DNA of 64,000 nucleotides, taken from the NCBI GenBank assembly GCA_026018925.1, contig JAKSZU010000271.1, forward strand, positions 124,001 through 188,000. Direction: 5' to 3'. Position numbers and translations under genes: made by a program. Under the pieces are notes generated by a model that was given only the letters and a program-made list of their open reading frames with translations, made no database searches and was not told the DNA's origin. Position 1 is the first letter of the stretch. Each line of letters starts with the position of its first letter. The DNA comes from Tupaia tana (Eukaryota; Chordata; Mammalia; Scandentia; Tupaiidae). Shown in pieces: positions 12,580 through 53,809 of the stretch.

Positions 12580-12614
<35 letters not shown>

Positions 12615-18521: not shown

Positions 18522-18531
18522 AATTTATGTT

Positions 18532-19950: not shown

Positions 19951-20000
19951 ATATATATATATATACATACATATATATATACACATATACAGACACACAG
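19951..20000. repeat. (TA/CA)n microsatellite
   Basis: A run of TA dinucleotides grading into ACATAC/ACACA. The D2 equivalent (53,761-53,838) is longer and of different composition. Confidence 0.9.
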
Positions 20001-20794
20001 TGATCAAGATGGAGAAATGCTGAAATCCTCTTGGGAGCCCATTCTACTACCCCAAAATCCTCAGGAGTGCCATGACTATGTACCTCTCACCCAAACAGTT
20101 TCCTTACCTACATTAGGAGATCTTTTGTCTGAGTACAGTGTTGGGTCTTACTTCAACTACCACAGGAAACACAGTTTCACTTCCAGAAGCAACACAATCA
20201 TGAGAAGTGAGATGTCTCCTGAGGGAGACATAAGCAGACCTGGAGAGAGAAAAGACAGACATGGCAAAGAGTCCCAAAGTCCTTACCAAAACACATTTTT
20301 TTCCCTTATAAAACAATCTCAAGTAACGACTTTAACGTCAGAGAAGGAAGAGAAGTGATGATGCATTGTCTATGACACTATCCAGAAATCCTGCCACCGA
20401 TAAAGAACAATGGGCTCCTGGACACCATGAGGTCCAAACACTTTGACTATGTCATAAACAGGAGGAAAGCAAGGTTCCTAAACCTGCACACTTACTGCTT
20501 TCAAGATCACACTACTAATTCCACAAACAACTGATGAGTTAACCGTCCCCCAGGAAACTGTTATTTTTGTAAATATACCTTATCTCTGTTAAACATAAAA
20601 ACTGTTTCTTAGCCCTTTAGGAAGTGAGCAGTAAATACATGAAGGAATCATCTAAATCTTATAGGATGTTACCCCTCAGAGGCTTGACAGTGTGTTAGAA
20701 TCATTATTTATGTCGCTTCTTATCAGAATTACCCAGAACATGATGCTTATACAACAGCATTTAAAAGAAAACTAGGTATAAAACATATATATTG

Positions 20795-21152
20795 CTCCTG
20801 CAAGTCCCTGGCCAGGAAGGGATACTGAGGGAGGGTCACCTCTGACCCCCACCACAATTCCAGGCCCCCAGGCCCCAGACTCCAACTTCTAGACTTTCTG
20901 TGCCTCCCAGCAGGCAATAGGCTCTCCTGAAAGCCCCTAGCCAGCAAGGGATACTGAGGGGGGGGGTTACCTCTGAACCCCACCCCACTTCCAGACCCCC
21001 AGGCCCCAGACTCCAACTTCTAGACTTTCTGTGCCTCCCAGCAGGCAATAGGCTCTCCTGCAAGCCCATCGCCAGCAAGGGATACTGAGGGAGGGTCACC
21101 TCTGACCCCCACGCCACTTCCAGACCCCCAGACCCCAGACTCCACTTTCTAG
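20795..21152 (+). repeat. Linker-free run (about 2.8 cores) at the array start
   Basis: The run begins in mid-core and ends at TTTCTAG before a 97-bp linker at 21,153-21,249. Another linker-free pair of cores follows at 21,250-21,507. Confidence 0.85.
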
Positions 21153-21603
21153 GTAGGTAGCCAGGATCTCCTTGAGGCGGTTTTGTGTTTTTTTTCTCTT
21201 GAACCCCCTGCATTCTCTTGTTAACACCTAGCTCTCCTTCTCCCCCTAGACTTTCCGTGCCTCCCAGCAGGCAATAGGCTCTCCTGCAAGCCCCTGGCCA
21301 GCAAGGGATACTAAGGGAGGGTTACCTCTGAACCCCACTCCACTTCCAGACCCCGAGGCCCCAGACTCCACCTTCTAGACTTTCCGTGCCTCCCAGCAGG
21401 CAATAGGCTCTCTTGCAAGCCCCGGGCCAGCAAGGGATACAGAGGGAGGGTCACCTCTGACCCCCACCCCACTTCCAGACCCCCAGGCCCCAGACTCCAC
21501 CTTCAAGGTAGGTAGCCAGGATCTTCTTGAGGCGGTTTTGTATTTTTTTCTCTTGAACCCCCTGCATTCTCTTGTTAACACCTAGCTCTCCTTCTCCCCC
21601 CAG

Positions 21604-22377
21604 ACTTTCCGAGCCTCCCATCAGGCAATAGGCTCTCCTGCAAGCTCCTGACCAGCAAGGGATACTGTGGGAGTGTCACCTCTGACCCCCACCCCACTTC
21701 CAGACCCCCAGGCCCCAGACTCCACCTTCTAGACTTTCCGTGCCTCCCAACAGGCAATAGGCTCTCCTGCAAGCCCCTGGCCAGCAAGGGATACTGAGGG
21801 AGGGTCACCTCTGACCCCCACCCCACTTCCAGACCCCCAGGCCCCAGACTCCACCTTCTAGACTTTCCGTGCCTCCCAGCAGGCAATAGGCTCTCCTGCA
21901 AGTCCCTGGCCAGCAAGGGATACTGAGGGAGGGTCACCTCTGACCCCCACCCCACTTCAAGACCCCCAGGCCCCAGACTCCACCTTCTAGACTTTCCGTG
22001 CCTCCCAGCAGGCAATAGGCTCTCCTGCAAGCCCCTGGCAAGCAAGGGATACTGAGGGAGGGTCACCTCTGACCCCCACCCCACTTCCAGACCCCCAGGC
22101 CCCAGAATCCACCTTCTAGACTTTCCGTGCCTCCCAGCAGGCAATAGGCTCTCCTGCAAGCCCCTGGCAAGCAAGGGATACTGAGGGAGGGTCACCTCTG
22201 ACCCCCACCCCACTTCCAGACCCCCAGGCCCCAGAATCCACCTTCTAGACTTTCCGTGCCTCCCAGCCGGAAATAGGCTCTCCTGCAAGCCCCTGGCCAG
22301 CAAGGGATACTGAGGGAGGGTCACCTCTGACGCCCACCCCACTTACAGACCCCCAGGCCCCAGACTCCACCTTCTAG
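21604..22377 (+). repeat. Linker-free run of six 129-bp cores
   Basis: The run is exactly 774 bp (6 x 129), bounded by CAG of one linker and GTAGGT of the next. Internal junctions read TTCTAG/ACTTTCC. Confidence 0.9.
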
Positions 22378-22476
22378 GTAGGTAGCCAGGATCTCCTTGA
22401 GGCGGTTTTGTGTTTTTTTTTTCTCTTGAAACCCCTGCATTCTCTTGTTAACCCCTAGCTCTCCTTCTCCCCCCAG

Positions 22477-23510
22477 ATTTTCTGTGCCTCCCAGAAGGCA
22501 ATAGGCTCTCCTGCAAGCCCCTGGCCAGCAAGGGATACTGACGGAGGGTCACCTCTGACCCCCACCCCACTTCCAGACCCCCAGGCCCCATACTCCACCT
22601 TCTAGACTTTCCCTGCCTCCCTGCAGGCAATAGGCTCTCCTGCAAGCCCCTGGCCAGCCAGGGATACTGAGGGAGGGTCACCTCTGACCCCCACCCCACT
22701 TCCAGACCCCCAGGCCCCAGACTCCACTTTCTAGACTTTCCTTGCCTCCCAGCAGGCAATAGGCTCTCCTGCAAGCCCTTGGCCAGCAAGGGATACTGAG
22801 GGAGGGTCACCTCTGACCCCCACTCCACTTCCAGGCCCCCAGGCCGCAGACTCCACCTTCTAGACTTTCCGTGCCTCCCAGCAGGCAATAGGCTCTCCTG
22901 CAAGCCCCTGGCCAGCAAGGGATACTGAGGGGGGGAGTCACCTCTGACCCCCACCCCACTTCCAGACCCCCAGGCCCCAGACTCCACCTTCTAGACTTTC
23001 CGTGCCTCCGAGCATGCAATAGGATCTCCTGCAAGCACCTGGCCAGCAAGGGATACTGATTGAGGGTCACCTCTGACCCCCACCCCACTTCCAGAACCCC
23101 AGGCCACAGACTCCACCTTCTAGACTTTCCGTGCCTCCCAGCAGGAAATAGGCTCTCGTGCAAGTCCCTGGCCAGCAGGGAATACTGAGGAAGGGTCACC
23201 TCTGACCCCCACCCCACTTCCAGACCCCCAAGCCCCAGACTCCACCTTGTAGACTTTCCGTGCCTCCCAGCAGGCAGTAGGCTCTCCTGCAAGCCCCTGG
23301 CCAGCAATGGATACTGACGGAGGGTCACCTCTGACCCCCACCCCACTTCCAGAACCCCAGGCCCCAGACTCCAACTTCTAGACTTTCCATGCCTCCCAGC
23401 ACGCAATAGGCTCTCCTGCAAGCCCTTGGCCAGCAAGGGATACTGAGGGAGGGTCACCTCTGACCCCCACACCACTTCCAGACCCCCAGGCCCAAGACTC
23501 CACCATCTAG
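22477..23510 (+). repeat. Linker-free run of eight cores
   Basis: 1,034 bp (8 x 129 + 2). It shares diagnostic variants with the run at 28,485-29,517, about 6.0 kb downstream, indicating duplication within the array. Confidence 0.9.
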
Positions 23511-25646
23511 GTAGGTAGCCAGGATCTCCTTGAGGCGGTTTGGTGTTCTTTTTCTCTTGAACCCCCTGCATTCTCTTGTTAACACCTAGCTATCCTTCTC
23601 CCCCCAGAATTTCCGTGCCTCCCAGCAGGCAATAGGCTTTCCTGCAAGCCCATGGCCAGCAAGGAATACTGAGGGAGGGTCCCCTTGACCCACACCCCAC
23701 TTCAAGACCTCCAGGCCCCAGACTCCACCTTCTAGGTAGGTACCCAGGATCTCCTTGAGGCGGTTTTGTGTTTTTTTTTTCTCTTGAACCCCCAGCATTC
23801 CCTTGTTAACACCTAGCTCTCCTTCTCCCCCCAGACTTTCCGTGCCTCCCAGCAGGCAATAGGCTCTCCTGCAAGCCCCTGGCCAGCAAGGGATACTGAG
23901 GGCGGGTCACCTCTGAGCCCCACCCCACTTCCAGACCCCCAGGCCCCATACTCCACCTTCTAGGTAGGTAGCCAGGATCTCCTTGAGGGAGTTTTGTGTT
24001 TTTTTTCTCTTGAACCCCCTGCATTCTCTTGTTAACACCTAGCCCTCCTTCTCCCCCCAGACTTTCCGTGCCTCCCAGCTGGCAAAAGGCTCCCCTGCAA
24101 GCCCCTGGCCAGCAAGGGATACTGAGGGAGGGTCACCTCTGACGCCCACCCCACTTCCAGACCTCCAGGACCCAGACTCCACCTTCTAGGTAGGTAGCCA
24201 GGATCTCCTTGAGGCGGTTTTGTGTTTTTTTTTCTCTTGAACCCCCTGCATTCTCCTGTTAACACCTAGCTCTCCTTATCCCCCCAGACTTTCCGTGCCT
24301 CCCAGCAGGCAATAGGCTCTCCTGCAAGCCCCTGGCCAGCAAGGGATACTTAGGGCGGGTCACCTCTGACTCCCACCCCACTTCCAGACCCCCAGGCCCC
24401 AGACTCCACCTTCTAGGTAGGTAGCCAGGATCTCCTTGAGGCGGTTTGGTGTTTTTTTTCTCTTGAACCCCCTGCATTCTCTTGTTAACACCTAGCTCTC
24501 CTTCTCCCCCCAGACTTTCCGTGCCTCCCAGCAGGCAATAGGCTCTCCTGCAAGCCCCTGGCCAGCGAGGGATACTGACGGAGGGTCACCTCTGACCCCC
24601 ACCCCACTTCCAGACCCCCAGGCCCCAGACTCCACCTTCTAGGTAGGTACCCAGGATCTCCTTGAGGCGGTTTTGTGTTTTTTTTTCTCTTGTACCCCCT
24701 GCATTCTTTTGTTAACACCTAGCTCTCCTTCTCCCCCAGACTTTCCGTGCCTCCCAGCAGGCAATAGGCTCTCCTGCAAGGCCCTGGCCAGCAAGGTATA
24801 CTGAAGGAGGGTCACCTCTGACCCCCACCCCACTTCCAGACCCCCAGGCCCCAGACTCCACCTTCTAGGTAGGTAGCCAGGATCTCCTTGAGGCGGTTTT
24901 GTGTTTTTTTTTTCTCTTGAACCCCCTGCGTTCTCTTGTTAACACCTAGCCCTCCTTCTCCCCCCCAGACTTTCCTTGCCTCCCAGCAGGCAATAGGCTC
25001 TCCTGCAAGCCCCTGGCCAGCAAGGGATACTGACGGAGGGTAACCTCTGACCCCCACACCACATCCATACCCCCAGGACCCAGACTCCACCTTCTAGGCA
25101 GGTAGCCAGGATCTATTTGAGGCGGTTTTGTGTTTTTTTTTCTCTTGAACCCCCTGCATTCTCTCGTTAACACCTAGCTCTCCTTCTCCCCCCAGACTTT
25201 CCGTGCCTCCCAGCAGGCAATAGGCTCTCCTGCAAGCCCCTGGCCAGCAAGGGATACTGAGGGAGGGTCACCCCTGACCCCCACCCCACTTCCAGACCCC
25301 CAGGCCCCAGACTCCACCTTCTAGGTAGGTAGCCAGGATCTCCTTGAGGCGGTTTTGTGTTTTTTTTTCTTGAACCCCCTGCGTTCTCTTGTTAACACCT
25401 AGCTGTCCTTCTCCCCCCAGACTTTCCGTGCCTCCCAGCAGGTAATAGGCTCTCCTGCAAGCCCCTGGCCAGCAAGGGATACTGAGGGAGGGTCACCTCT
25501 GACCCCCACACCACATCCATACCCCCAGGCCCCAGACTCCACCTTCTAGGTAGGTAGCCAGGATCTATTTGAGGCGGTTTTGTGTTTTTTTTCTCTTGAA
25601 CCCCTTGCATTCTCTCGTTAACACCTAGCTCTCCTTCTCCCCCTAG

Positions 25647-26033
25647 ACTTTCCGTGCCTCCCAGCAGGCAATAGGCTCTCCTGCAAGCCCCTGGCCAGCA
25701 AGGGATACTGAGGGAGTGTCACCTCTGACCCCCACCCCACTTCCAGACCCCTAGTCCCCAGACTCCACCTTCTAGATTTTCCGTGCCTCCGAGCATGCAA
25801 TAGGATCTCCTGCAAGCCCCTGGCCAGCAAGGGATACTGAGGGAGTGTCACCTCTGACCCCCACCCCACTTCCAGACCCCTAGTCCCCAGACTCCACCTT
25901 CTAGACTTTCCGTGCCTCCCAGCAGGCAATAGGCTCTCTTGCAAGCCCCGGGCCAGCAAGGGATACAGAGGGAGGGTCACCTCTGACCCCCACCCCACTT
26001 CCAGATCCCCAGGCCCCAGATTCCACCTTCAAG
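25647..26033 (+). repeat. Linker-free run of three cores
   Basis: 387 bp (3 x 129). It follows a linker ending CTAG and ends with the unusual donor context TTCAAG also seen at 21,507. Confidence 0.88.
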
Positions 26034-26355
26034 GTAGGTAGCCAGGATCTTCTTGAGGCGGTTTTGTATTTTTTTCTCTTGAACCCCCTGCATTCTCTTG
26101 TTAACACCTAGCTCACCTTCTCCCCCCAGACTTTCCTTGCCTCCCAGCAGGCTATAGGCTCTCCTGCAAGCCCCTGGCCAGCAAGGGATACTGAGGGAGG
26201 GTCACCTCTGATCCCCAGCCCACTTCCAGACCCCCAGGCCCCAGACTCCACCTTCTAGGTAGGTAGCCAGGATCTCCTTGAGGCGGTTTTTTGTTTTTAT
26301 TCTCTTGAACCCCCTGCATTCTCTTGTTAACACCTAGCTCTCCTTCTCCCCCCAG

Positions 26356-26742
26356 ACTTTCCGAGCCTCCCAGCAGGCAATAGGCTCTCCTGCAAGCTCC
26401 TGGCCAGCAAGGGATACTGTGGGAGTGTCACCTCTGACCCCCACCCCACTTCCAGACCCCCAGGCCCCAGACTCCACCTTCTAGACTTTCCGTGCCTCCC
26501 AACAGGCAATAGGCTCTCCTGCAAGCCCCTGGCCAGCAAGGGATACTGAGGGAGGGTCACCTCTGACCCCCACCCCACTTCCAGACCCCCAGGCCCCAGA
26601 CTCCACCTTCTAGACTTTCCGTGCCTCCCAGCAGGCAATAGGCTCTCCTGCAAGTCCCTGGCCAGCAAGGGATACTGAGGGAGGGTCACCTCTGACCCCC
26701 ACCCCACTTCCAGACCCCCAGGACCCAGACTCCACCTTCTAG
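26356..26742 (+). repeat. Linker-free run of three cores
   Basis: 387 bp (3 x 129). The following linker starts ATAGTTAG instead of GTAGGTAG. Confidence 0.88.
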
Positions 26743-27066
26743 ATAGTTAGCCAGGATCCCCTTGAGGGGGTTTTGTGTTTTTTTTCTCTTGAACCGCCTG
26801 CATTCTCTTGTTAACATCTAGCTCTCCTTCTCCCCCCAGACTTTCCATGCCTCCCAGCAGGCAATAGGCTCTCCTGCAAGCCCCTGGCCAGCAAGGGATA
26901 CTGAGGGAGGGTCACCTCTGACCCCAACCCCACTTCCAGACCCCCAAGCCCCAGACTCCACCTTCTAGGTAGGTAGCCAGGATCTCCTTGAGGCGGTTTT
27001 GTGTTTTTTTTTCTCTTGAACCCCCTGAATTTTCTTGTTAACACCTAGCTCTCCTTCTCCCCCCAG

Positions 27067-27711
27067 AATTTCCATGCCTCCCCGCAGGCAATAGGCTCTC
27101 CTGCAAGCCCCTGGCCAGCAAGGGATACTGAGGGAGTGTCACCTCTGACCCCCACCCCACTTCCAGACCCCTAGGCCCCAGACTCCACCTTCTAGACTTT
27201 CCGTGCCTCTCAGCATGCAATAGGCTCTCCTGCAAGCCCCTGGCCAGCAAGGGATACTGATTGAGGGTCACCTCTGACCCCCACCCCACTTCCAGAACCC
27301 CAGGCCCCAGGCTCCACCTTCTAGATTTTCCGTGCCTCCCAGCAGGCAATAGACTCTCCTGCTAGCCCCTGGCCAGCAGGGAATACTGAGGGAGGGTCAC
27401 CTCTGACCCCCACCCCACTTCCAAACCCCCAGGCCCCAGATTCCAAATTGTAGATATTCCGTGCCTCCCATTAGGCAGGAGGCTCTCCTGCAAGCCCCTG
27501 GCCAGCAAGGGATACTGATGGAGGGTCACCTCTGACCCCCACCCCACTTCCAGACCCCCAGGCCCCAGACTCCACCTTCTAGACTTTCCGTGCCACCCAG
27601 CAGGCAATAGGCTCTCTTGCAAGCCCTTGGCCAGCAAGGGATACTGAGGGAGGGTCACCTCTGACTCCCACCCCACTTCCAGACCCCCAGGCCCAAGACT
27701 CCACCACCTAG
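27067..27711 (+). repeat. Linker-free run of five cores
   Basis: 645 bp (5 x 129). It is duplicated at 32,331-32,974, about 5.26 kb away, with shared variants such as TGTAGATATTCC and CATTAGGCAGGAGG. Confidence 0.9.
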
Positions 27712-28484
27712 GTAGGTAGCCAGGATCTCCTTGAGGCGGTTTGGTGTTCTTTTTCTCTTTAACCCCCTGCATTCTCTTGTTAACACCTAGCTCTCCTTCT
27801 CCCCCCAGTCTTTCCATGCCTCCCAGCAGGCAATAGGGTCTCCTGCAAGCTCCTGGCCAGCAAGGGATACTGAGGGAGGGTCACCTCTGACACCCACCAC
27901 ACTTCCAGACCCTCAGGCCCCAGACTCCACCTTCTAGGTAGGTAGCCAGGATCTCCTTGAGGCGGTTTGGTGTTCTTTTTCTCTTGAACCCCCTGCATTC
28001 TCTTGTTAACACCTAGCTCTCCTTCTCCCCACAGACTTTCCGTGCCTCCCAGCAGGCAATAGGCTCTCCTGCAAGCCCCTGGCCAGCAAGGGATACTGAG
28101 GGAGGGTCACCTCTGACCCCCACCACACTTCCAGACCACCAGGCCCCAGACTCCACCTTCTAGGTTGGTAGCCAGGATCTCCTTGAGGCGGTTTTGCGTT
28201 TTTTTTCTCTTGAACCCCCTGCATTCTCTTGTTAACACTTAGCTCTCCTTCTCCCCCCAGACTTTCCATGCCTCCCAGCACGCAATAGGCTCTCCTGCAA
28301 GCCCTGGCCAGCAAGGGATACTGAGGAAGGGTCACCTCTGACCCCCACACCACTTCCAGACCCCCAGGCCTCAGACTCCACCTTCTAGATAGGTAGCCAG
28401 GATCTCCTTGAGGCGGTTTTGTGTTTTTTTTCTCATGAACCCCCTGCATTCTCTTGTTAACCCCTAGCTCTCCTTCTCCCCCAG

Positions 28485-29517
28485 ATTTTCTGTGCCTCCC
28501 AGAAGGCAATAGGCTCTCCTGCAAGCCCCTGGCCAGCAAGGGATACTGACGGAGGGTCACCTCTGACCCCCACCCCACTTCCAGACCCCCAGGCCCCAGA
28601 CTCCACCTTCTAGACTTTCCCTGCCTCCCTGCAGGCAATAGGCTCTCCTGCAAGCCCCTGGCCAGCCAGGGATACTGAGGGAGGGTCACCTCTGACCCCC
28701 ACCCCACTTCCAGACCCCCAGGCCCCAGACTCCACTTTCTAGACTTTCCTTGCCTCCCAGCAGGCAATAGGCTCTCCTGCAAGCCCTTGGCCAGCAAGGG
28801 ATACTGAGGGAGGGTCACCTCTGACCCCCACTCCACTTCCAGGCCCCCAGGCCGCAGACTCCACCTTCTAGACTTTCCGTGCCTCCCAGCAGGCAATAGG
28901 CTCTCGTGCAAGCCCCTGGCCAGCAAGGGATACTGAGGGGGGGGTCACCTCTGACCCCCACCCCACTTCCAGACCCTAAGGCCCCAGACTCCACCTTCTA
29001 GACTTTCCGTGCCTCCGAGCATGCAATAGGATCTCCTGCAAGCACCTGGCCAGCAAGGGATACTGATTGAGGGTCACCTCTGACCCCCACCCCACTTCCA
29101 GAACCCCAGGCCACAGACTCCACCTTCTAGACTTTCCGTGCCTCCCAGCAGGAAATAGGCTCTCGTGCAAGTCCCTGGCCAGCAGGGAATACTGAGGAAG
29201 GGTCACCTCTGACCCCCACCCCATTTCCAGACCCCCAGGCCCCAGACTCCACCTTGTAGACTTTCCGTGCCTCCCAGCAGGCAGTAGGCTCTCCTGCAAG
29301 CCCCTGGTCAGCAAGGGATACTGACGGAGGGTCACCTCTGACCCCCACCCCACTTCCAGAACCCCAGGCCCCAGACTCCACCTTCTAGACTTTCCATGCC
29401 TCCCAGCACGCAATAGGCTCTCCTGCAAGCCCTTGGCCAGCAAGGGATACTGAGGGAGGGTCACCTCTGACCCCCACACCACTTCCAGACCCCCAGGCCC
29501 AAGACTCCACCATCTAG
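28485..29517 (+). repeat. Linker-free run of eight cores
   Basis: 1,033 bp (8 x 129 + 1). It is a near copy of 22,477-23,510. Confidence 0.9.
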
Positions 29518-32330
29518 GTAGGTAGCCAGGATCTCCTTGAGGCGGTTTGGTGTTCTTTTTCTCTTGAACCCCCTGCATTCTCTTGTTAACACCTAGCTAT
29601 CCTTCTCCCCCCAGAATTTCCGTGCCTCCCAGCAGGCAATAGGCTCTCCTGCAAGCCCATGGCCAGCAATGAATACTGAGGGAGGGTCCCCTTGACCCAC
29701 ACCCCACTTCCAGACCTCCAGGCCTCAGACTCCACCTTCTAGGTAGGTACCCAGGATCTCCTTGAGGTGGTTTGGTGTTCTTTTTCTCTTGAACCCCCTG
29801 CATTCTCTTGTTAACACCTAGCTCTCCTTCTCCCCCCAGACTTTCCGTGCCTCCCAGCAGGCAATAGACTCTCCTGCAAGCCCCTGGCCAGCAAGGGATA
29901 CTGAGGGAGGGTCACCTCTGAGCCCCACCCCACTTCCAGACCCCCAGGCCCCAGACTCCACCTTCTAGGTAGGTAGCCAGGATCTCCTTGAGGGAGTTTT
30001 GTGTTTTTTTTCTCTTGAACCCCCTGCATTCTCTTGTTAACACCTAGCCCTCCTTCTCCCCCCAGACTTTCCTTGCCTCCCAGCAGGCAAAAGGCTCTCC
30101 TGCAAGCCCCTGGCCAGCAAGGGATACTGAGGGAGGGTCACCTCTGACCCCCACCCCACTTCCAGACCCCCAGGCCCCAGACTCCACCTTCTAGGTAGGT
30201 AGCCAGGATCTCCTTGAGGTGGTTTTGTGTTTTTTTTTTTCTGTTGAACCCCCTGCATTCTCTTGTTAACACCTAGCTCTCCTTAACCCCCCAGACTTTC
30301 CGTGCCTCCCAGCAGGCAATAGGCTCTCCTGCAAGCCCCTGGCCAGCAAGGGATACTGAGGGCGGGTCACCTCTGACTCCCACCCCACTTCCAGACCCCC
30401 AGGCCCCAGACTCCACCTTCTAGGTAGGTAGCCAGGATCTCCTTGAGGCGGTTTTGTGTTTTTTTTTCTCTTGAACCCCCTGCATTCTTTTGTTAACACC
30501 TAGCTCTCCTTCTCCCCCCAGACTTTCCGTGCCTCCCAGCAGGCAATAGGCTCTCCTGCAAGCCCCTGGCCAGCAAGGGATACGGAGAGAGGGTCACCTC
30601 TGACGCCCACCCCACTTCCAGACCTCCAGGACCCAGACTCCACCTTCTAGGTAGGTAGCCAGGATCTCCTTGAGGCGGTTTTGTGTTTTTTTTCTCTTGA
30701 ACCCCCTGCATTCTCTTGTTAACACCTAGCTCTCCTTCTCCCCCCAGACTTTCCGTGCCTCCCAGCAGGCAATAGGCTCTCCTGGAAGCCCCTGGCCAGC
30801 AAGGGATACTAAGGGAGGGTCACGTCTGACCCCCACCCCACTTCCAGACCCCCAGGCCCCAGACTCCACCTTGTAGGTAGGTAGCCAGGATCTCCTTGAG
30901 GCGGTTTTGTGTTTTTTTTCTCTTGAACCCCCTGCATTCTCTTGTTAACACCTAGCTCTCCTTCTCCCCCCAGACTTTCCGTGCCTCCCAGCAGGCAATA
31001 GGCTCTCCTGCAAGGCCCTGGCCAGCAAGGGATACTGAGGGAGGGTCACCTCTGACCCCCACCCCACTTTCAGACCCCCAGGCCCCAGACTCCACCTTCT
31101 AGGTAGGTAGCCAGGATCTCCTTGAGGCGGTTTTGTGTTTTTTTTCTCTTGAACCCTCTGCATTCTCTTGTTAACACCTAGCTCTCCTTCTCCCCCCAGA
31201 CTTTCCGTGCCTCCCAGCAGGCAATAGGCTCTCCTGCAAGCCCCTGGGCAGCAAGGGATACTGACGGAGGGTCACCTCTGACCCCACCGCACTTCCAGAC
31301 CCCCAGGCCCCAGACTCCACCTTCTAGGTAGGTACCCAGGATCTCCTTGAGGCGGTTTTGTGTTTTTTTTTCTCTTGAACCCCCTGCATTCTCTTGTTAA
31401 CACCTAGCTCTCCTTCTCCCCCAGACTTTCCATGCCTCCCAGCAGGCAATAGGCTCTCCTGCAAGCCCCTGGCCAGCAAGGTATACTGAAGGAGGGTCAC
31501 CTCTGACCCCCACCCCACTTCCAGACCCCCAGGCCCCAGACTCCACCTTCTAGGTAGGTAGCCAGGATCTCCTTGAGGCGGTTTTGTGTTTTTTTTTTCT
31601 TGAACCCCCTGCGTTCTCTTGTTAACACCTAGCTCTCCTTCTCCCCCCAGACTTTCCGTGCCTCCCAGCAGGTAATAGGCTCTCCTGCAAGCCCCTGGGC
31701 AGCAAGGGATACTGAGGGAGGGTCACCTCTGACCCCCACACCACATCCATACCCCCAGGCCCCAGACTCCACCTTCTAGGTAGGTAGCCAGGATCTATTT
31801 GAGGCGGTTTTGTGTTTTTTTTCTCTTGAACCCCTTGCATTCTCTCGTTAACACCTAGCTCTCCTTCTCCCCCTAGACTTTCCGTGCCTCTCAGCAGGCA
31901 ATAGGCTCTCCTGCAAGCCCCTGGCCAGCAAGGGATACTGAGGGAGGGTCACCTCTGACCCCCACCCCACTTCCAGACCCCCAGGCCCCAGACTCCACCT
32001 TCTAGATAGGTAGCCAGGATCCCCTTGAGGGGGTTTTGTGTTTTTTTTCTCTTGAACCCCCTGCATTCTCTTGTTAACATCTAGCTCTCCTTCTCCCCCC
32101 AGACTTTCCATGCCTCCCAGCAGGCAATAGGCTCTCCTGCAAGCCCCTGGCCAGCAAGGGATACTGAGGGAGGGTCACCTCTGACCCCAACCCCACTTCC
32201 AGACCCCCAGGCCCCAGACTCCACCTTCTAGGTAGGTAGCCAGGATCTCCTTGAGGCGGTTTTGTGTTTTTTTTTTCTCTTGAACCCCCTGAATTTTCTT
32301 GTTAACACCTAGCTCTCCTTCTCCCCCCAG

Positions 32331-32974
32331 AATTTTCATGCTTCCCAGCAGTCAATAGGCTCTCCTGCAAGCCCCTGGCCAGCAATGGATACTGAGGGAG
32401 TGTCACCTCTGACCCCCACCCCACTTCCAGACCCCTAGGCCCCAGACTCCACCTTCTAGACTTTCCGTGCCTCCCAGCATGCAATAGGCTCTCCTGCAAG
32501 CCCCTGGCCAGCAAGGGATACTGATTGAGGGTCACCTCTGACCCCCACCCCACTTCCAGAACCCCAGGCCCCAGGCTCCACCTTCTAGATTTTCCGTGCC
32601 TCCCAGCAGGCAATAGACTCTCCTGCAAGCCCCTGGCCAGCAGGGAATACTGAGGGAGGGTCACCTCTGACCCCCACCACACTTCCAAACCCCCAGGCCC
32701 CAGATTCCAACTTGTAGATATTCCGTGCCTCCCATTAGGCAGGAGGCTCTCCTGCAAGCCGCTGGCCAGCAAGGGATACTGATGGAGGGTCACCTCTGAC
32801 TCCCACCCCACTTCCAGACCCCCAGGCCCCAGACTCCACCTTCTAGACTTTCCGTGCCACCCAGCAGGCAATAGGCTCTCTTGCAAGCCCTTGGCCAGCA
32901 AGGGATACTGAGGGAGGGTCACCTCTGACTCCCACCCCACTTCCAGACCCCCAGGCCCAAGACTCCACCACCTA
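32331..32974 (+). repeat. Linker-free run of five cores
   Basis: 644 bp (5 x 129 - 1). It is a near copy of 27,067-27,711. Confidence 0.9.
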
Positions 32975-34200
32975 GGTAGGTAGCCAGGATCTCCTTGAGG
33001 CGGTTTGGTGTTCTTTTTCTCTTTAACCCCCTGCATTCTCTAGTTAACACCTAGCTCTCCTTCTCCCCCCAGTCTTTCCATGCCTCCCAGCAGGCAATAG
33101 GGTCTCCTGCAAGGCCCTGGCCAGCAAGGGATACTGAGGGAGGGTCACCTCTGACACCCACCACACTTCCAGACCCTCAGGCCCCAGACTCCACCTTCTA
33201 GGTAGGTAGCCAGGATCTCCTTGAGGCGGTTTGGTGTTCTTTTTCTCTTGAACCCCCTGCATTCTCTTGTTAACACCTAGCTCTCCTTCTCCCCACAGAC
33301 TTTCCGTGCCTCCCAGCAGGCAATAGGCTCTCCTGCAAGCCCCTGGCCAGCAAGGGATACTGAGGGAGGGTCACCTCTGACCCCCACCACACTTCCAGAC
33401 CACCAGGCCCCAGACTCCACCTTCTAGGTTGGTAGCCAGGATCTCCTTGAGGCGGTTTTGTGTTTTTTTTCTCTTGAACCCCCTGCATTCTCTTGTTAAC
33501 ACTTAGCTCTCCTTCTCCCCCCAGACTTTCCATGCCTCCCAGCACGCAATAGGCTCTCCTGCAAGCCCTGGCCAGCAAGGGATACTGAGGGAGGGTCACC
33601 TCTGACCCCCACACCACTTCCAGACCCCCAGGCCTCAGACTCCACCTTCTAGATAGGTAGCCAGGATCTCCTTGAGGCGGTTTTGTGTTTTTTTTCTCAT
33701 GAACCCCCTGCATTCTCTTGTTAACACCTAGCTCTCCTTCTACCCCCAGAATTTCCGTGCCTCCCACCAGGCAATAGGCTCTCCTGCAAGCCCCTGGCCA
33801 GCAAGGGTTACTGTGGGAGGGTCACCTCTGACCCCCACCCCACTTCCAGACCCCCAGGCCCCAACTCCACCTTCTAGGTAGGTAGCCAGGATCTCCTTGA
33901 GGCGGTTTTGTGTTTTTTTTCTCTTGAAGCCCCTGCATTCTCTCGTTAACACCTAGCTCTCCTTCTCCCCCAGACTTTCCGTGCCTCCCAGCAGGCAATA
34001 GGCTCTCCTGCAAGCCCCTGGCCAGCAAGGGATACTGAGGGAGGGTCACCTCTGACCCCCACCCCACTTCCAGACCCCCAGGCCCCATACTCCACCTTCT
34101 AGGTAGGTAGCCAGGATCTCCTTGAGGCGGTTTTGTGTTTTTTTTTCTCTTGAACCCCCTGCATTCTTTTGTTAACACCTAGCTCTCCTTCTACCCCTAG

Positions 34201-34458
34201 ACTTTCCGTGCCTCCTAGCAGGCAATAGGCTCTCCTGCAAGCCCCTGGCCAGCAAGGGTTACTGAGAGAGGGTCACCTCTGACGCCCACCCCACTTCCAG
34301 ACCCCCAGGCCCCAGACTCCACCTTCTAGACTTTCCGTGCCTCCCAGCAGGCAATAGGTTCTCCTACAAGCCCCTGGCCAGCAAGGGATACTGAGGTAGG
34401 GTCACCTCTTACCCCCACCCCACTTCCAGACCCCCTGGCACCCGACTCCACCTTCTAG
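34201..34458 (+). repeat. Linker-free pair of cores
   Basis: 258 bp (2 x 129). It is duplicated at 37,943-38,200, about 3.74 kb away, within a larger repeated block that also covers 34,939-35,136 and 38,682-38,879. Confidence 0.88.
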
Positions 34459-37400
34459 GTAGGTAGCCAAGATCTCCTTGAGGTGGTTTTGTGTTTTATT
34501 TCTCTTGAACCCCCTGCATTCTCTTGTTAACACCTAGCTCTCCTTATCCCCCCAGACTTTCCGTGCCTCCCAGCAGGCAATAGGCTCTCCTGCAAGCCCC
34601 TGGCCAGCAAGGGATACTGAGGGAGGGTCACCTCTGACCCCACCCCACTTCCAGACCCCCAGGCCCCAGACTCCACCTTCTAGGTAGGTAGCCAGGATCT
34701 CCTTGAGGCGGATTTGTGTTTCTTTTTCTCTTGAACCCCCTGCATTCTCTTGTTAACACCTAGCTCTCCTTCTCCCCCAGACTTTCCATGCCTCCCAGCA
34801 GGCAATAGGCTCTCCTGCAAGCCCCTGGCCAGCTAGGGATACTGAGGGAGGATCACCTCTGACCCCACCCCACTTCCAGACCCCCAGGCCCCAGACTCCA
34901 CCTTCTAGGTAGGTAGCCCGTATCGCCTTGAGGCGGTTTTGTGTTTTTTTCTCTTGAACCCCCTGCGTTCTCTTGTTAACACCTTGCTCTCCTTCTCCCC
35001 CCAGACTTTCCGTTCCTCCCAGCAGGCAATAGGCTCTCCTGCAAGCCCCTGGGCAGCAAGGGATACTGACGGAGGGTCACCTCTGACCCTCACTCACTTC
35101 CAGACCCCCAGGCCCCAGACTCCACCTTCTAGGTAGGTAGCCAGGATCTCCTTGAGGCGGTTTTCTGTTTTTTTTTCTCTTGAACCCCCTGCATTCTCTT
35201 GTTAACACCTAGCTCTCCTTCTACCCCAGGCTTTCCGTGTCTTCCAGCAGGCAATAGGCTCTCCTGCAAGCCCCTGGCCAGCAAGGGATACTGAGGGAGG
35301 GTCACCTCTGACCCCCACCCCATTTCCAGACCCCCAGGGCCCAGAGTCCACCTTCTAGGTAGGTAGCCAGTATCTCCTTGAGGCGGTTTTGTGTTTTTTT
35401 TTTCTCTTGAACCCCTTGCATTCTCTTGTTAACACCTAGCTCTCCTTCTCCCCCCAGACTTTCCGTGCCTCCCAGCAGGCAATAGGCTCTCCTGCAAGCC
35501 CCTCGCTAGCAAGGGATACTGAGGGAGGGTCACCTCTGACCCCCACCCCACTTCCAGACCCCAGGCCCCAGAGTCCACCTTCTAGGTATGTAGCCGGGAT
35601 CTCCTTGAGGCGGTTTTGGGTATTTTTTCTCTTGAACCCCCTGCGTTCTCTTGTTAACACCTAGCTCTCCTTCTCCCCCCAGACTTTCCGTGCCTCCCAG
35701 CAGGCAATAGGGTCTCCTGCAAGCCCCTGGCCAGCGAGGGATACTGAGGGAGGGTCACCTCTGACCCCCACCCCACTTCCAGACCCCCAGGCCCCAGACT
35801 CCACCTTCTATGTAGGTAGCCAGGATCTCCTTTAGGCGGTTTTGTGTTTTATTTCTCTTGAACCCTCTGCATTCTCTTGTTATCACCTAGCTCTCCTTCT
35901 CCCCACAGACTTTACGTGCCTCCCAGCAGGCAATAGGCTCTCCTGCAAGCCCCTCGCTAGCAACGGATACTGAGGGAGGGTCACCTCTGACCCCCACCCC
36001 ACTTCCAGATCCCCAGGCCCCAGACTCCACCTTCTAGTTAGGTAGCCACGATCTCCTTGAGCCGGTTTTGTGTTTTTTTTCTCTTGAACCCCCTGCATTC
36101 TCTTGTTAACACCTAGCTCTCCTTGTCCCCCCAGACTTTCCGTGCCTCCCAGCAGGCAATAGGCTCTCCTGCAAGCCCCTGTCCAGCAAGGGATACTGAG
36201 GGAGGGTCACCTCTGACCCCAACCCCACTTCCAGACCCCCAGGCCCCAGACTCCACCTTCTAGGTAGGTAGCCAGGATCTCTGTGATGCGGTTTTGGGTT
36301 TTTTTTCTCTTGAACCCCCTGCATTCTCTTGTTAACACCTAGCTATCCTTCTCCCCCCAGACTTTCCGTGCTTCCCAGCAGGCAATAGGCTCTCCTGCAA
36401 GCCCCTGGCCGGCAAGGGATACAGACGGAGGGTCACCTCTGACCCCACCCCACTTCCAGACCCCCAGGGCCCAGACTCCACCTTCTAGGTAGGTAGCCAG
36501 GATCTCCTTGAGGCGGTTTTGTGTTTTTTTTTTTTCTCTTGAACCCCCTGCATTTTCTTGTTAACACCTAGCTCTCCTTCTCCCCCAGACTTTCCGTGCC
36601 TCCCAGCAGGCAATAGGCTCTCCTGCAAGCCCCTGGCCAGCAAGGGATACTGAGGGAGGGTAACCTCTGAGACCCACCCCACTTCCAGACCCCCAGGCCC
36701 CAGACTCCACCTTCTAGTTAGGTAGCCCGGATCTCCTTGAGGCGGTTTTGTGTTTTTTTCTCTTGAACCCCCTGCGTTCTCTTGTTAACACCTAGCTCTC
36801 CTTCTCCCCCCAGACTTTCCGTGCCTCCCAGCAGGCAATAGGCTCTCCTGCAAGCCCCTGGCCAGCAAGGGATACTGAGGGAGGGTCACCTCTGACCCCC
36901 ACCCCACTTTCAGACCCACAGGCCACAGACTCCACCTTCTAGGTAGGTAGCCAGGATCTCCTTGAGGCGGTTTTGTGTTTTTTTTCTCTTGAACCCCCTG
37001 CGTTCTCTTCTTAACACCTAGCTCTCCTTCTCCCCCCAGACTTTCCGTGCCTCCCAGCAGGCAATAGGCTCTCCTGCAAGCCCCTGGCCAGCAAGGGATA
37101 CTGACGGAGTGTCACCTCTGACCCCACCCCACTTCCAGACCCACAGGCCCCAGACTCCACCTTCTAGTTAGGTAGCCAGGATCTCCATGAGGCGGTTTTG
37201 TGTTTTTTTTTCTCTTGAACCACCTGCATTCTCTTGTTAACACCTAGCTCTCCTTCTCCCCCAGACTTTCCATGCCTCCCAGCAGGCAATAGGCTCTCCT
37301 GCAAGCCCCTGGCCAGCAAGGGATACTGAGGGAGGGTCACCTCTGACCCCCACCCCACTTCCAGACACCTAGGCCCCAGACTCCACCTTCTAGGTAGGTA

Positions 37401-37942
37401 GCCCGGATCTCCTTGAGGCGGTTTTGTGTTTTTTTCTCTTGAACCCCCTGCGTTCTCTTCTTAATACCTAGCTCTCCTTCTCCGCCCAGACTTTCCGTGC
37501 CTCCCAGCAGGCAATAGGCTCTCCTGCAAGCCCCTGGCCAGCAAGAGATACTGACGAAGGGTCACCTCTGATCCCCACTCACTTCCAGACCCCCAGGCCC
37601 CAGACTCCACCTTCTAGGTAGGTAGCCAGGATCTCCTTGAGGCGGTTTTGTGTTTTTTTTTCTCTTGAACCCCCTGCATTCTCTTGTTAACACCTAGCTC
37701 TCCTTCTCCCCCCAGACTTTCCATGCCTCCCAGCAGGCAATAGGCTCTCCTGCAAGCCCCTGGCCAGCAAGGGATACTGAGGGAGGGTCACCTCTGACCC
37801 CCACCCCACTTCCAGACCCCCAGGCCCCATACTCCACCTTCTAGGTAGGTAGCCAGGATCTCCTTGAGGCGGTTTTGTGTTTTTTTTTCTCTTGAACCCC
37901 CTGCATTCTTTTGTTAACACCTAGCTCTCCTTCTCCCCCCAG

Positions 37943-38200
37943 ACTTTCCGTGCCTCCTAGCAGGCAATAGGCTCTCCTGCAAGCCCCTGGCCAGCAAGGG
38001 TTACTGAGAGAGGGTCACCTCTGACGCCCACCCCACTTCCAGACCCCCAGGCCCCAGACTCCACCTTCTAGAGTTTCCGTGCCTCCCAGCAGGCAATAGG
38101 CTCTCCTGCAAGCCCCTGGCCAGCAAGGGATACGGAGGGAGGGTCACCTCTGACCCCCACCCCACTTCCAGACCCCCTGGCACCAGACTCCACCTTCTAG
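37943..38200 (+). repeat. Linker-free pair of cores
   Basis: 258 bp (2 x 129), a near copy of 34,201-34,458. From here to the array end every unit carries the linker. Confidence 0.88.
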
Positions 38201-41200
38201 GTAGGTAGCCAGGATCTCCTTGAGGCGGTTTTGTGTTTTATTTCTCTTGAACCCCCTGCATTCTCTTGTTAACACCTAGCTCTCCTTCTCCCCCCAGACT
38301 TTCCGTGCCTCCCAGCAGGCAATAGGCTCTCCTGCAAGCCCCTGGCCAGCAAGGGATACTGAGGGAGGGTCACCTTTGACCCCACCCCACTTCCAGACCC
38401 CCAGGCCCCAGACTCCACCTTCTAGGTAGGTAGCCAGGATCTCCTTGAGGCCGTTTTGTGTTTCTTTTTTTCTTGAACCCCCTGCATTCTCTTGTTAACA
38501 CCTAGCTCTTCTTCTCCACCAGACTTTCCGTGCCTCCCAGCAGGCAATAGGCTCTCCTGCAAGCCCCTGGCCAGCTAGGGATACTGAGGGAGGGTCACCT
38601 CTGACCCCCACCCCACTTCCAGACCCCCAGGCCCCAGACTCCACCTTCTAGGTAGGTAGCCCGGATCGCCTTGAGGCGGTTTTGTGTTTTTTTCTCTTGA
38701 ACCCCCTGCGTTCTCTTGTTAACACCTTGCTCTCCTTCTCCCCCCAGACTTTCCGTTCCTCCCAGCAGGCAATAGGCTCTCCTGCAAGCCCCTGGGCAGC
38801 AAGGGATACTGACGGAGGGTCACCTCTGACCCTCACCCACTTCCAGACCCCCAGGCCCCAGACTCCACCTTCTAGGTAGGTAGCCAGGATCTCCTTGAGG
38901 CGGTTTTCTGTTTTTTTTCTCTTGAACCCCCTGCATTCTCTTGTTAACACCTAGCTCTCCTTCTACCCCAGGCTTTCCGTGTCTTCCAGCAGGCAATAGG
39001 CTCTCCTGCAAGCCCTTGGCCAGCAAGGGATACTGAGGGAGGGTCACCTCTGACCCCCACCCCACTTCCAGACCCCAAGGCCCCAGACTCCACCTTCTAG
39101 GTAGGTAGCCAGGATCTCCTTGAGGCGGTTTTGTGTTTTTTTTTTCTCTTGAACCCCTTGCATTCTCTTTTTAACACCTAGCTCTCCTTCTCCCCCCAGA
39201 CTTTCCGTTCCTCCCAGCAGGCAATAGGCTCTCCTGCAAGCCCCTCGCTAGCAAGGGATACTGAGGGAGGGTCACCTCTGACCCCCACCCCACTTCCAGA
39301 CCCCAGGCCCCAGAGTCCACCTTCTAGGTATGTAGCCAGGATCTCCTTGAGGCGGTTTTGTGTATTTTTTCTCTTGAACCCCCTGCGTTCTCTTGTTAAC
39401 ACCTAGCTCTCCTTCTCCCCCCAGACTTTCCGTGCCTCCCAGCAGGCAATAGGGTCTCCTGCAAGCCCCTGGCCAGCGAGGGATACTGAGGGAGGGTCAC
39501 CTCTGACCCCCACCCCACTTCCTGACCCCCAGGCCCCAGACTCCACCTTCTATGTAGGTAGCCAGGATCTCCTTTAGGCGGTTTTGTGTTTTATTTCTCT
39601 TGAACCCCCTGCATTCTCTTGTTATCACCTAGCTCTCCTTCTCCCCCTAGACTTTCCGTGCCTCCCAGCAGGAAATAGGCTCTCCTGCAAGCCCCTGGCC
39701 AGCAAGGGATACTGAGGGAGGGTCACCTCTGAGCCCCACCCCACTTCCAGACCCCCAGGCCCCAGACTCCACCTTCTAGGTAGGTAGCCAAGATCTCCTT
39801 GAGGCAGTTTTGTGTTTTATTTCTCTTGAACCCCCTGCATTCTCTTGTTAACACCTAGCTCTCCTTCTCCCCCCAGACTTTCCGTGCCTCCCAGCAGGCA
39901 ATAGGCTCTCCTGCAATCCCCTGGCCAGCAAGGGATACTGGGGGTGGGTCACCTCTGACCCCCACCCCACTTCCAGACCCCCAGGACCCAGACTCCACCT
40001 TCTAGGTAGGTAGCCAGGATCTTCTTGAGGCGGTTTTGTGTTTTTTTTTCTCTTGAACCCCTTGCATTCTCTTGTTAACACCTAGCTCTCCTTCTCCCCC
40101 CAGACTTTCCGTGCCTCCCAGCAGGCAATAGGCTCTCCTGCAAGCCCCTGGCCAGCAAGGGATACTGAGGGAGGGTCACCTCTGACCCCAACCCCACTTC
40201 CAGACCCCCAATCCGTAGACTCCACCCTCTAGGTAGGTAGCAAGGTTCTGCATGAGGCGGTTTTGTGTTTTTTTTCTCTTGAACCCCCTGTATTCTCTTG
40301 TTAACACCTAGCTCTCCTTCTCCCCCCAGAATTTCCGTGCCTCCCAGCATGCAATAGGCTCTCCTGCAAGCTTCTGGCTGGCAAGGAATACTGAGGGAGT
40401 GTCACCTCTGACCCCCACCCCACTTCCAGACCCCCAGGCCCCAGACTCCACCTTCTAGGTAGGTAGCCAGGATCTCCTTGAGGCGGTTTTGTGTTTTATT
40501 TCTCTTGAACCCCCTGCATTCTCTTGTTAACACCTAGCTCTCCTTCTCCCCCCAGACTTTCCGTGCCTCCCAGCAGGCAATAGGTCTCCTGCAAGCCCCT
40601 GGCCAGCAAGGGATACTGAGGGAGGGTCACCTCTGACCCCCACCCCAGTTCCAGACCCCCAGGCCCCAGACTCCACCTTCTAGGTAGGTAGCCAGTATCT
40701 CCTTGAGGCGGTTTTGTGTTTTATTTCTCTTGAACCCCCTGCATTCTCTTGTTAACACCTAGCTCTCCTTCTTCCCCCAGACTTTCCGTGCCTCCCAGCA
40801 GGCAATAGGCTCTCCTGCAAGCCCCTGGCCAGCAAGCGATACTGAGGGAGGGTCACCTCTGACCCCCACCCCACTTCCAGATCCCCAGGCCCCAGAGTCC
40901 ACCTTCTAGGTAGGTAGCCAAGATCTCCTTGAGGCGGTTTTGTGTTTTTTTTCTCTTGAACCCCCTGCATTCTCTTGTTAACACCTAGCTCTCCTTTTCC
41001 TCCTAGACTTTCCGTGCCTCCCGGCAGGCAATAGGCTCTCCTGCAAGCCCCTGGCCAGCAAGGGATACTGAGGGAGGGTCACCTCTGAGCCCCACCCCAC
41101 TTCCAGACCCCCAGGCCCCAGACTCCACCTTCTAGGTAGGTAGCCAAGATCTCCTTGAGGCGGTTTTGTGTTTTATTTCTCTTGAACCCCCTGCATTCTC

Positions 41201-41589
41201 TTGTTAACACCTAGCTCTCCTTCTCCCCCCAGACTTTCCATGCCTCCCAGCAGGCAATAGGCTCTCCTGCAATCCCCTGGCCAGCAAGGGATACTGGGGG
41301 TGGGTCACCTCTGACCCCCACCCCACTTCCAGACCCCCAGGCCCCAGACTCCACCTTCTAGGTAGGTAGCCAGGATCTCCTTGAGGCGGTTTTGTGTTTT
41401 TTTTTTCTCTTGAACCCCTTGCATTCTCTTGTTAACACCTAGCTCTCCTTCTCCCCCCAGACTTTCCGTGCCTGCCAGCAGGCAATAGGCTCTCCTGTAA
41501 GCCCCTGGCCAGCAAGCGATACTGAGGGAGGGTCACCTCTGACCCCCACCCCACTTCCAGACCCCCAATCCGTAGACTCCACCCTCTAG

Positions 41590-41686
41590 GTAGGTAGCCA
41601 GGTTCTGCATGAGGCGGTTTTGTGTTTTTTTTCTCTTGAACCCCCTGTATTCTCTTGTTAACACCTAGCTCTCCTTCTCCCCCCAG
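41590..41686 (+). other. Intron-like 97-bp linker (last of about 72)
   Basis: It starts GTAGGTAGCC after CTAG and contains TTGTTAAC (branch-point-like TTAAC about 26 nt before the end). It has a CTCTCCTTCTCCCCCC pyrimidine tract and ends in AG before ACTTTCC. Deleting it leaves CTAG/ACTTTCC, the junction seen in the short units. The splice interpretation is inference from sequence. Confidence 0.7.
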
Positions 41687-41733
41687 ACTTTCCGTGCCTC
41701 CCAGCAGGCAATAGGTTCTCTTGCAAGCCTCTG

Positions 41734-42111
41734 GCGAAATTGCGTGCCATGCTAATGCGCGACGCGCAACTTTTTCTTTATTTTTCTGTCTTGTCTTTCC
41801 TTTCGTTCCATATTGTCCTCTCCTCCTTATTTTTTACCATGCCAGAGAGACTAGACAGGTCTAGAATCATATATCTGAAATTTCCTTGGAAGGTAAGTTT
41901 CTCTGGGATCCTCCCTAGTACTGATCCCCTTTGAAAAAGGAGATACTGCTTGTTAGACTCTTCTGTAGAGTTCCCCTCCTGAAAACACATTGGTAGAAAC
42001 AACAGAAGGGAGACTTCAACAAACAGCTATTCCCATCAAAAAGGAAAGACTCTTACTTCTCGTGGGACAACAGTTCTCCCTAGAGGTCTTTAAAAGGGAA
42101 GTAATCTTCCA
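41734..42111 (+). promoter_or_regulatory. Unique L1 5' UTR between array and ORF1
   Basis: The region opens with a CpG-dense patch containing the near-perfect palindrome TGCGCGACGCGCA (41,756-41,768) next to ATGCTAAT. A strong 5' splice site, GAAG/GTAAGT, lies at 41,892/41,893. With the last linker's acceptor it would define a 206-nt exon (41,687-41,892). The ORF1 start is at 42,112. Confidence 0.7.
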
Positions 42112-43069
42112 ATGGCTAAAAGTAGAAAAAGAGCCTCAGGTCTGAATAAACAAGAAAATATGTCTCCAACAAAGGAAAATGCCCCTCCATGTCTCGTAAA
42201 TATTGAGGACGTTACCAAAATGACAGACACAGAATTTCGAACATTCATGGTGACCAAATTCTGTGAATTGGAAAAAAAAAGAGACAATGAACTACAGGAA
42301 ATTAGGAAGTCCTTCCAGTATATGAAAGAAGAAATGGATACTCTGAGAAAGAATCAGGTGGAACTATTAGAGATAAAGTCTATACTACAAGAAATAAAAA
42401 ACTTTCTGGAAAGTATTAAGAGCCGATTAGACCATGCTGAAGATCGAATCTCTGATGTAGAAGATAAAACCTCTGATCTAGAAAAAAACTACAAAAAGAT
42501 CGAGAAAATAACTAAAAAACATGAGGATAATATACGAGAAATACTAGACTCTATTAGACGCCCAAACATCAGAATAATCGGCATCCCAGAAGGTGAAGAA
42601 ACTAATAGCGGAATGGAAAATCTATTCCATGACATCTTGGAAGAAAATTTCCCAAGCCTAGAGGCACCGAACCATCCGGACCCAAGAAATACAAAGGACC
42701 CCAAATAGAATCAACCCCAGAAGATCTTCCCCAAGGCAGATCTTAGCCAGGCTGTCTAACGTCACAGAAAAAGACATGATACTAAAACTGGCAAGAGAGA
42801 AACGAGAAATAACTTACAAAGGCCATCCCATAAGACTAACACCAGACCTCTCATCAGAAACAATGCAAGCAAGAAAAGAATGGGAAGACATACTGAAAGT
42901 GTTAAGAGAGAAACAATTTCAGTCAAGACTATTATACCCTGCAAGATTATCCTTCAGTTGGGAAAAAAAGATTAAAATCTTCTCAGACAAACAAAACCTG
43001 AAAGAATTTGCCAACACCAGACCAGCTCTTCAAGAAATCCTGAGGAAAGTACTGTTCCAGGAAAACTAA
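42112..43069 (+). pseudogene. L1 ORF1 (RNA-binding chaperone), one frameshift
   Basis: The open frame runs 42,112-42,708: a basic N terminus (MAKSRKRASG), a coiled coil (about residues 55-140) and RRM-like RRPNIRIIGIPEGEE. The frame then shifts near 42,665-42,680. The C-terminal domain continues in the +1-related frame (NRINPRRSSPR, YKGHPIRL, LYPARLSFSW) to the stop after VLFQEN at 43,067-43,069. L1 ORF1p is a trimeric nucleic-acid chaperone that binds its own RNA. With the shift, the product would lose the C-terminal domain. It lies 44 bp upstream of ORF2, the usual L1 spacing. Confidence 0.93.
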
Positions 43070-47419: not shown

Positions 47420-47579
47420 AAAAGTGAGTGGTACATATATGAAGAAATCGTCTGTAAACCTCCTGTGATACTTGTCTTCAGAGCTCTTATATGCATATCT
47501 AGAATTATTATTTATGTTATCACTTCACAGAGTTACTCAGCATTTGATGTGTACACAGCACTATCAAAATAAAAAGTAG

Positions 47580-53760: not shown

Positions 53761-53761
53761 A

Positions 53762-53809
<48 letters not shown>

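Follow-up and report, generated by a model that had tools for sequence, protein, structure and literature searches.

Promoter monomers of a Tupaia tana LINE-1 differ by one intron-like block, probably lost through splicing and retrotransposition

The stretch of Tupaia tana DNA analysed here (the window: 64,000 nucleotides of contig JAKSZU010000271.1, positions 124,001 to 188,000) contains a LINE-1 (L1) retrotransposon whose promoter is a tandem array of two kinds of unit (Table 1): a long unit (L), by consensus a 129-bp core followed by a 97-bp block, and a short unit (S), which is the core alone. Given the sequence of the block and the arrangement of L and S units in this and other L1 copies of the same genome, it is highly probable that recurrent splicing of cap-proximal promoter introns, followed by retrotransposition, best explains the data. 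Seen directly in the DNA are all-or-none joins, their presence in several monomer subfamilies, the 5' position of S units, intron-derived leaders and target-site duplications flanking some small S..L insertions. The original prediction, that each monomer carries an intron and that partly spliced RNA was reverse-transcribed, is supported, the splicing itself being read from sequence.

Counted from anchor to anchor within 20893-41686, the array holds 107 full units, 72 of them long (224-229 bp) and 35 short (129 bp in 32 units, 130 bp in one and 131 bp in two); a looser parser returned 105 units (74 L, 31 S), having overlooked some diverged short units. As had been claimed, the two kinds differ by one exact block with a single join. 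The join of the short units, from ...TAG to A(C/T/A/G)TTTCC, is identical in 35/35 with no ragged ends, and unit lengths and the listed alignments contain no indel above 4 bp besides the block, whose length in the window shifts by a few bases, mainly at a T-run and a C-run. In the window, S and L units have cores whose consensus agrees at 129/129 positions. Beyond the array, the window gave only short weak matches to the block or monomer (E 0.08 or worse) and no monomer-like sequence, and exact scans with a 24-base monomer pattern gave 0 matches in viral and 0 in prokaryote contigs, as expected for a mammalian sequence.

Introns of the U2 type have GT-AG ends, a YTNAY branch site 18-44 nt before the AG and a pyrimidine tract. 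The block has the sequence features of such an intron: GT-AG ends, a branch-like site, a pyrimidine tract and a workable length of 87-119 nt. The 5' splice site, TTAAC motif, pyrimidine tract and AG originally read in the block are all there, as is an inner AG close after the branch-like motif; the A of TTAAC lies ~26 nt before the exon by consensus count, with the C/T tract after it. In a home-made splice scoring based on general splice-site frequency tables, the donor that opens the block outscores every other GT of the unit on either strand and falls in the top 1% of 3,911 flank GTs; the acceptor that closes it outscores every other AG of the unit and falls in the top 0.4% of 5,113 flank AGs. 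Both ends are equally good in 3 of 17,020,460 flank segments of 70-299 bp, a rough control, the flank being less C-rich than the array. The chance that a random deletion within the unit would strike both sites is ~6e-5 for a free length and ~1e-2 for a length held at 97. Among 33 blocks aligned from the genome (30 distinct, 87-119 bp), 32 start with GTAGGTAG, 33 end in YAG and 32 match a TTnTTA branch-like motif; the length and middle of the block vary by subfamily and the GT...YAG ends are constant. Within the window array the 3' AG is changed in 0/72 blocks and the donor G in 7/72, and these sequences give no visible sign of constraint on the splice sites after insertion.

The wider survey covered the window's own 2.95-Gb genome. 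Exact patterns matched 57,727 long donors and 11,479 short joins (reversed controls, 16 and 56), but the long/short ratio is only rough, since a particular exon start is built into the short pattern and not into the donor pattern. These ~69,000 exact unit joins correspond, by rough estimate, to 10 Mb or more of L1 promoter array in the genome. In addition, 718 junctions were parsed from 53 non-random sources (the window, two contigs C1 and C4, 39 other copies found through the L1 linker and 11 loci with a short last join, with 7 upstream extensions), in which piece overlaps of 13-64 bases may double-count a few. The outcome was 398 exactly short, 18 off by one, one off by two, 0 intermediate and 301 long; short-unit ends varying around the junction did not occur, and the ends are exact in this set. 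It is conceivable that the block was instead deleted repeatedly at the level of DNA or cDNA, by slippage, recombination or template jumping between units, and the block does lie within tandem repeats, where such events are common. However, this is disfavoured as very improbable for several reasons: the 718 junctions include no intermediates and just 19 that miss by one or two bases, the same join results from blocks of differing length, direct repeats at the joins amount to AG only, and there is no change of state in the 50 strongly linked pairs of window units described next.

The window array has grown by segmental duplications, with lags of 33, 28, 17, 22, 26-27, 34-36 and 6 units. Pairs of units linked by rare variants agree in S/L state in 50/50 cases where the link is strong, 24/27 where it is moderate and 29/36 where it is weak, against a chance agreement of 0.56; one pair at the margin of a duplicated segment, u7 (S) and u34 (L), is discordant with only 2 core bases of difference. 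The 50/50 agreement indicates that S/L state does not flip at the DNA level at a visible rate and, since the 35 short units are largely duplicates, they do not stand for 35 separate events. Substitutions per 129-bp core number 5.1 in S and 3.9 in L units, a difference from which nothing is concluded given that the S units are not independent. The window alone cannot separate one event from many. This raises the possibility that one old deletion, or insertion of the block, produced two monomer types that were then spread by unequal exchange, gene conversion and inheritance, with no splicing now. The S/L states shared through segmental duplication in the window suit such a history, as do the AG at both ends of the block, a 2-bp microhomology for deletion, and the regular repeats and S-only variant of C1 taken up below. 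Nevertheless, a single old event is unlikely once other arrays are considered. Among nine-base haplotypes just past the join (8-16 nt), 20/60 carry both S and L and 10/60 have at least two of each, with block lengths that differ between haplotypes; the core 8-16 nt from the join would have to be homogenised in 20 haplotypes while the join itself stayed unconverted. Nor does a single event predict an S^mL^n polarity, block leaders followed by S, or the coincidence of the block ends with the best splice sites.

Throughout the bases read (all 24,312 of C1 and the first 20,000 of 24,233 in C4), contigs C1 and C4 consist of array. They come from a different subfamily, distinguished by differences in the core and by blocks of 111-130 bp. 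Their S and L consensus cores are again identical, in a sequence unlike that of the window, and short units as a separate basal lineage are a poor fit to this identity in both the window and C1/C4. Divergence in C1/C4 is 0.6-0.8 substitutions per core. With unit divergence below 1%, C1/C4 (L009-L013) show a satellite-like growth of the L1 promoter unit.

Other L1 copies were sought with the non-repeated linker of the 5' untranslated region (5'UTR) as query, which yielded 40 copies, the window's own included, of 2,265 first-look candidates; 30 were read together with 1.5 kb of flanking sequence and the other 10 over 701 bases apiece. The linker carries a very strong donor-like AAG/GTAAGT at 41893, the same in other copies examined, and splice scoring found no acceptor above 5 downstream of it up to 43200. 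In many independent copies tandem units lie directly 5' of the linker in variable number, as in a monomer-type promoter. Typical strings are SL, SSL and SSSL. The 3'-most unit is long in 39/39 linker loci with a full unit, window included, and L035, with no full unit, begins in the last block; the join before the 3'-most unit is short in 17/26 of the first 30 loci having one. Genome-wide, exact patterns of the last join gave 143 long and 11 short, the long pattern also counting elements that merely start in the last block. Eight of the 11 last-short loci are all-short in 1.5 kb, two are mixed (L049, L051) and the core of L052 could not be parsed. For the loci among the first 30 with a visible 5' end and both states (20 loci), L stands before S in 1/149 ordered pairs, or 1/105 without the last unit, and 0/20,000 shuffles were as low; this set omits L028 and L034, which run off their pieces, the window, the 10 later loci and the pattern-selected L046-L056.

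The survey of array classes that had been proposed was run in part and found all three: all-long (L037, with at least 28 blocks; L034 is nearly all-long), all-short (L054 and L056, with at least 43 short joins together with L070 and L071) and mixed. L054 and L056 could stem either from fully intron-free RNAs or from later DNA amplification. The strongest rival to recurrent splicing is that S^mL^1 is the fixed layout of the source, simply inherited after one past splicing event per subfamily, with the difference between mouse monomer 1 and monomer 2 as a parallel. A long 3'-most unit in 39/39 linker loci and in 143/154 exact genome-wide matches is what such a layout would give. It is answered in part by the all-long L037, which shares haplotype ACTATCCAGGACTGCC with L039 and L044 (S^3L and SL insertions), and by L017, L027, L032 and L043, which keep more than one block.

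The 5' ends of the insertions bear on the same question. In the first 30 loci, 18 coincide with the start of the core or lie in the immediately preceding block (L032 as read in its extension), six are at core position 21-32, two are elsewhere in the core and four extend beyond the piece read; for the window array the start is core position 32. These preferred places in the unit suggest transcription start sites. Among the 40 linker loci, leaders of at least 4 nt that precede a join are of block type in 10 (L017, L023, L024 with 4 nt only, L032 by eye, L033, L036, L041, L042, L043 and L083) and core-type in two (L084, L085), those of L083 and L085 being read from 24 upstream bases only; L077, with a 4-nt core-like match taken as chance, L037, and L080, whose piece ends inside its block, were not counted. 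In 8/10 the block-type leader is followed directly by an S join, a succession of long then short found in 10/71 cases in the window array. A block leader with an S join next suggests that the RNA began just below an intact block and that the next intron was gone. Under a fixed layout the core-type leaders of L084 and L085 would fit an RNA start in an S unit, but the block-type leaders (10 vs 2) put a block just upstream of the start in the source; this rival is judged improbable. Target-site duplications of 13-19 bp, a sign of target-primed reverse transcription (TPRT), were found in 6/12 pairs tried, with one mismatch allowed and partly overlapping the A-tail. Five of the six copies contain S joins (L017 SSSLL, L022 SL, L025 SSSL, L036 SL and L045 SSSL) and the sixth, L038, has one block and no S; of the remaining pairs, five lacked a poly(A) signature within the 2 kb read and the match in L020 was too weak to count. 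Since the duplication lies directly against the start of the array, or against a leader of a few bases, the small arrays arrived in their present form. In their TPRT hallmarks and in having lost GT/AG-bounded 5'UTR stretches relative to full copies, these five S-join copies resemble spliced integrated retrotransposed elements (SpIREs).

It is suggested that the monomer would be a 129-nt exon followed by a short GT-AG intron, which measures 87-119 nt across the 33 aligned blocks, and that long arrays retaining their introns would act as sources. Transcription may begin within a unit, in many cases no later than the acceptor AG of one that carries its intron, or else ~21-32 nt inside the core. 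Introns would then be removed by the spliceosome from the 5' cap-proximal side, the 3'-most usually being left, and the partly or fully spliced RNA would be reverse-transcribed at a new site to give S...S-L insertions. Splicing and retrotransposition would have been repeated, in several monomer subfamilies. An S..SL daughter would have one block left, and L035 resembles the next step.

Several observations weigh against this scheme. The order of units is mixed in the window array, where 14 of the first 17 units are short, as well as in L028, L034, L043 (one inversion), L078 (LSSL, running off its piece), L049 (LLLLLLS), L051 (SLSLSLSS) and L053 (one L inside S). In the window, weaker links are partly discordant (3/27 moderate, 7/36 weak), S and L clump on the core tree (13 state changes vs a shuffle mean of 29) and several variants are confined to S units. 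The regular higher-order SSSL/SL patterns of C1 suggest amplification at the DNA level, of which a C1 variant present in 18 S and 0 L units is a further sign, and the very long all-short arrays probably grew as DNA. The two core-type leaders look as if begun in an S unit, and the leader test would be weakened by any C1-like source, where L is nearly always followed by S. Finally, the nearly constant retention of the last intron runs counter to exon definition, under which the linker donor at 41893 should aid its splicing.

The identity of the window element is clear from an ORF1p RNA-binding domain upstream of an ORF2 with an APE-type endonuclease and a reverse transcriptase (PF02994, PF03372 and PF00078, all over the Pfam cut-offs), and its PDB matches are LINE-1 ORF1p and ORF2p, with E 2.1e-148 for the reverse transcriptase piece. 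Among 5,077 matches to the endonuclease piece, the 120 listed share 54-66% identity with it, and those with a name include Rhinolophus, Manis and Sciurus. The L1 is bracketed exactly by a 7.2-kb direct repeat, B and B', such that repeat boundaries are insertion boundaries: the left copy stops where the array starts and the right copy begins after the A-run, at CTTC/AAAAG in the paralogue, a sequence similar to an L1 endonuclease site. The repeat is read as a candidate very long target-site duplication; tandem duplication made by L1 insertion has been described in tumours (PMC7058536). The two copies differ by 427 substitutions in 7,155 sites (5.97%), and pairs of cores in the array, counting duplicates, diverge by 6.1% between long units, 6.9% between long and short units and 7.4% between short units. 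Since core-pair divergence is near that of B and B', the array was probably already mixed and nearly uniform when inserted or soon after. At the 3' end of the L1, ~170 bp between two A-runs (47248-47423) end in an older L1-like tail, and this segment is probably a 3' transduction. A second repeat pair lies outside the 7.2-kb repeats (1-5665 and 58340-64000, 95%), and older L1 pieces lie on the minus strand at 10022-10849 (ORF1 region, ~75% identical) and 12596-12788 (3' end, 70%).

Table 1. Positions of the promoter array, its units and the surrounding L1 and repeats in the window
Feature	Position	Strand	Remarks
Repeat copy B, left	13609..20793	+	7.2-kb direct repeat
Tandem L1 promoter array	20795..41733	+	107 full units, partial first unit (from core position 32), partial last core
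Short unit u1	20893..21023	+	131 bp
Core ('exon') of long unit u2	21024..21152	+	129 bp, example
97-bp block (putative intron)	21153..21249	+	example; GTAGGTAG donor, TTAAC branch-like site, pyrimidine tract, AG
Short unit u3	21250..21378	+	
Short units u5-u9	21604..22248	+	run of five
Short units u11-u17	22477..23381	+	run of seven
Short units u28-u29	25647..25904	+	
Short units u32-u33	26356..26613	+	u32 duplicate of u5
Short units u36-u39	27067..27582	+	rare variants of u37, u38 common to u15, u16
Short units u44-u50	28485..29388	+	duplicate of u11-u17, lag 33
Short units u64-u67	32331..32846	+	duplicate of u36-u39, lag 28
Short unit u74	34201..34329	+	
Short unit u91	37943..38071	+	duplicate of u74, lag 17
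3'-most block	41590..41686	+	adjoins L1 body
Partial last core	41687..41733	+	array-to-linker joint
Non-repeated 5'UTR linker	41734..42111	+	query for other L1 copies
L1 ORF1 region, broken frame	42112..43069	+	end by eye; first open piece 42112-42708, L1 RNA-binding domain PF02994
L1 ORF2 region, broken frame	43114..46829	+	endonuclease 43114-44106, reverse transcriptase 44293-45210, C-terminal 45567-46829
L1 poly(A) and ~170 bp	47235..47423	+	closes in second A-run right before flank repeat
Repeat copy B', right	47420..54625	+	

Precise removal of introns written into DNA is familiar from processed pseudogenes and from intron loss via reverse transcription. Unlike in processed pseudogenes, the putative introns here are part of the promoter of the retrotransposon itself, and their loss is incomplete and polar. 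The nearest known process is that of the human SpIREs, in which, as described in PMC5860796, L1 5'UTR RNA is spliced at GT-AG and inserted by TPRT with loss of promoter sequence, as would be the case here. According to the same source, one large stretch is lost, e.g. nt 97-622, and SpIREs make up a small class of 131/6,609 full-length L1PA1-6 elements (~2%) and are generally dead ends in human L1. By comparison with that account, an intron would occur here once per monomer, several might be lost together, with the loss forming a gradient along the RNA, and many of the sampled elements look spliced. The analogy drawn originally therefore stands, but its 'monomer scale' was too small, given that whole small insertions look like spliced RNAs. 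The nearest known anatomy is that of the mouse L1 monomer promoters, which in the consulted portions of PMC9022269, PMC6454616 and PMC2176070 likewise consist of tandem ~200-bp units joined by a linker (tether) to ORF1, with variable unit number and 5' ends within the unit. No intron per monomer is described in those portions, in contrast to the putative introns here; for mouse L1spa two predicted donors (M8, M7) and two acceptors (M1, tether) are given, and 22 mouse copies are possibly spliced (PMC9022269, the latter citing Belancio 2006). At 28 monomers, the longest mouse promoter mentioned in those portions is shorter than the window array with its 107 full units. Among the literature titles and abstract openings listed, none gave an account of an intron in L1 monomers.

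A further proposal, offered tentatively and with some doubt, is that this L1 lineage depends on an array of dozens of intron-exon promoter units, that the genome stores many partly spliced L1 RNAs as a record of splicing order and that splicing sets a limit on generations. If so, cap-proximal introns would leave first and the terminal intron would be spared; intron-rich arrays would be lasting sources, while a spliced daughter with one block left would found only promoterless copies, such that array expansion and splicing would be constantly opposed. The escape of the last intron from splicing is raised as a testable question. In summary, if recurrent splicing and retrotransposition are correct, splicing would be built into the promoter and would influence the form of many small copies within an L1 family. 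It would become possible to measure how array growth, which adds promoter, is opposed by splicing, which removes it, and the arrays would form a DNA archive of partial splicing from which the order along the RNA could be read statistically without RNA.

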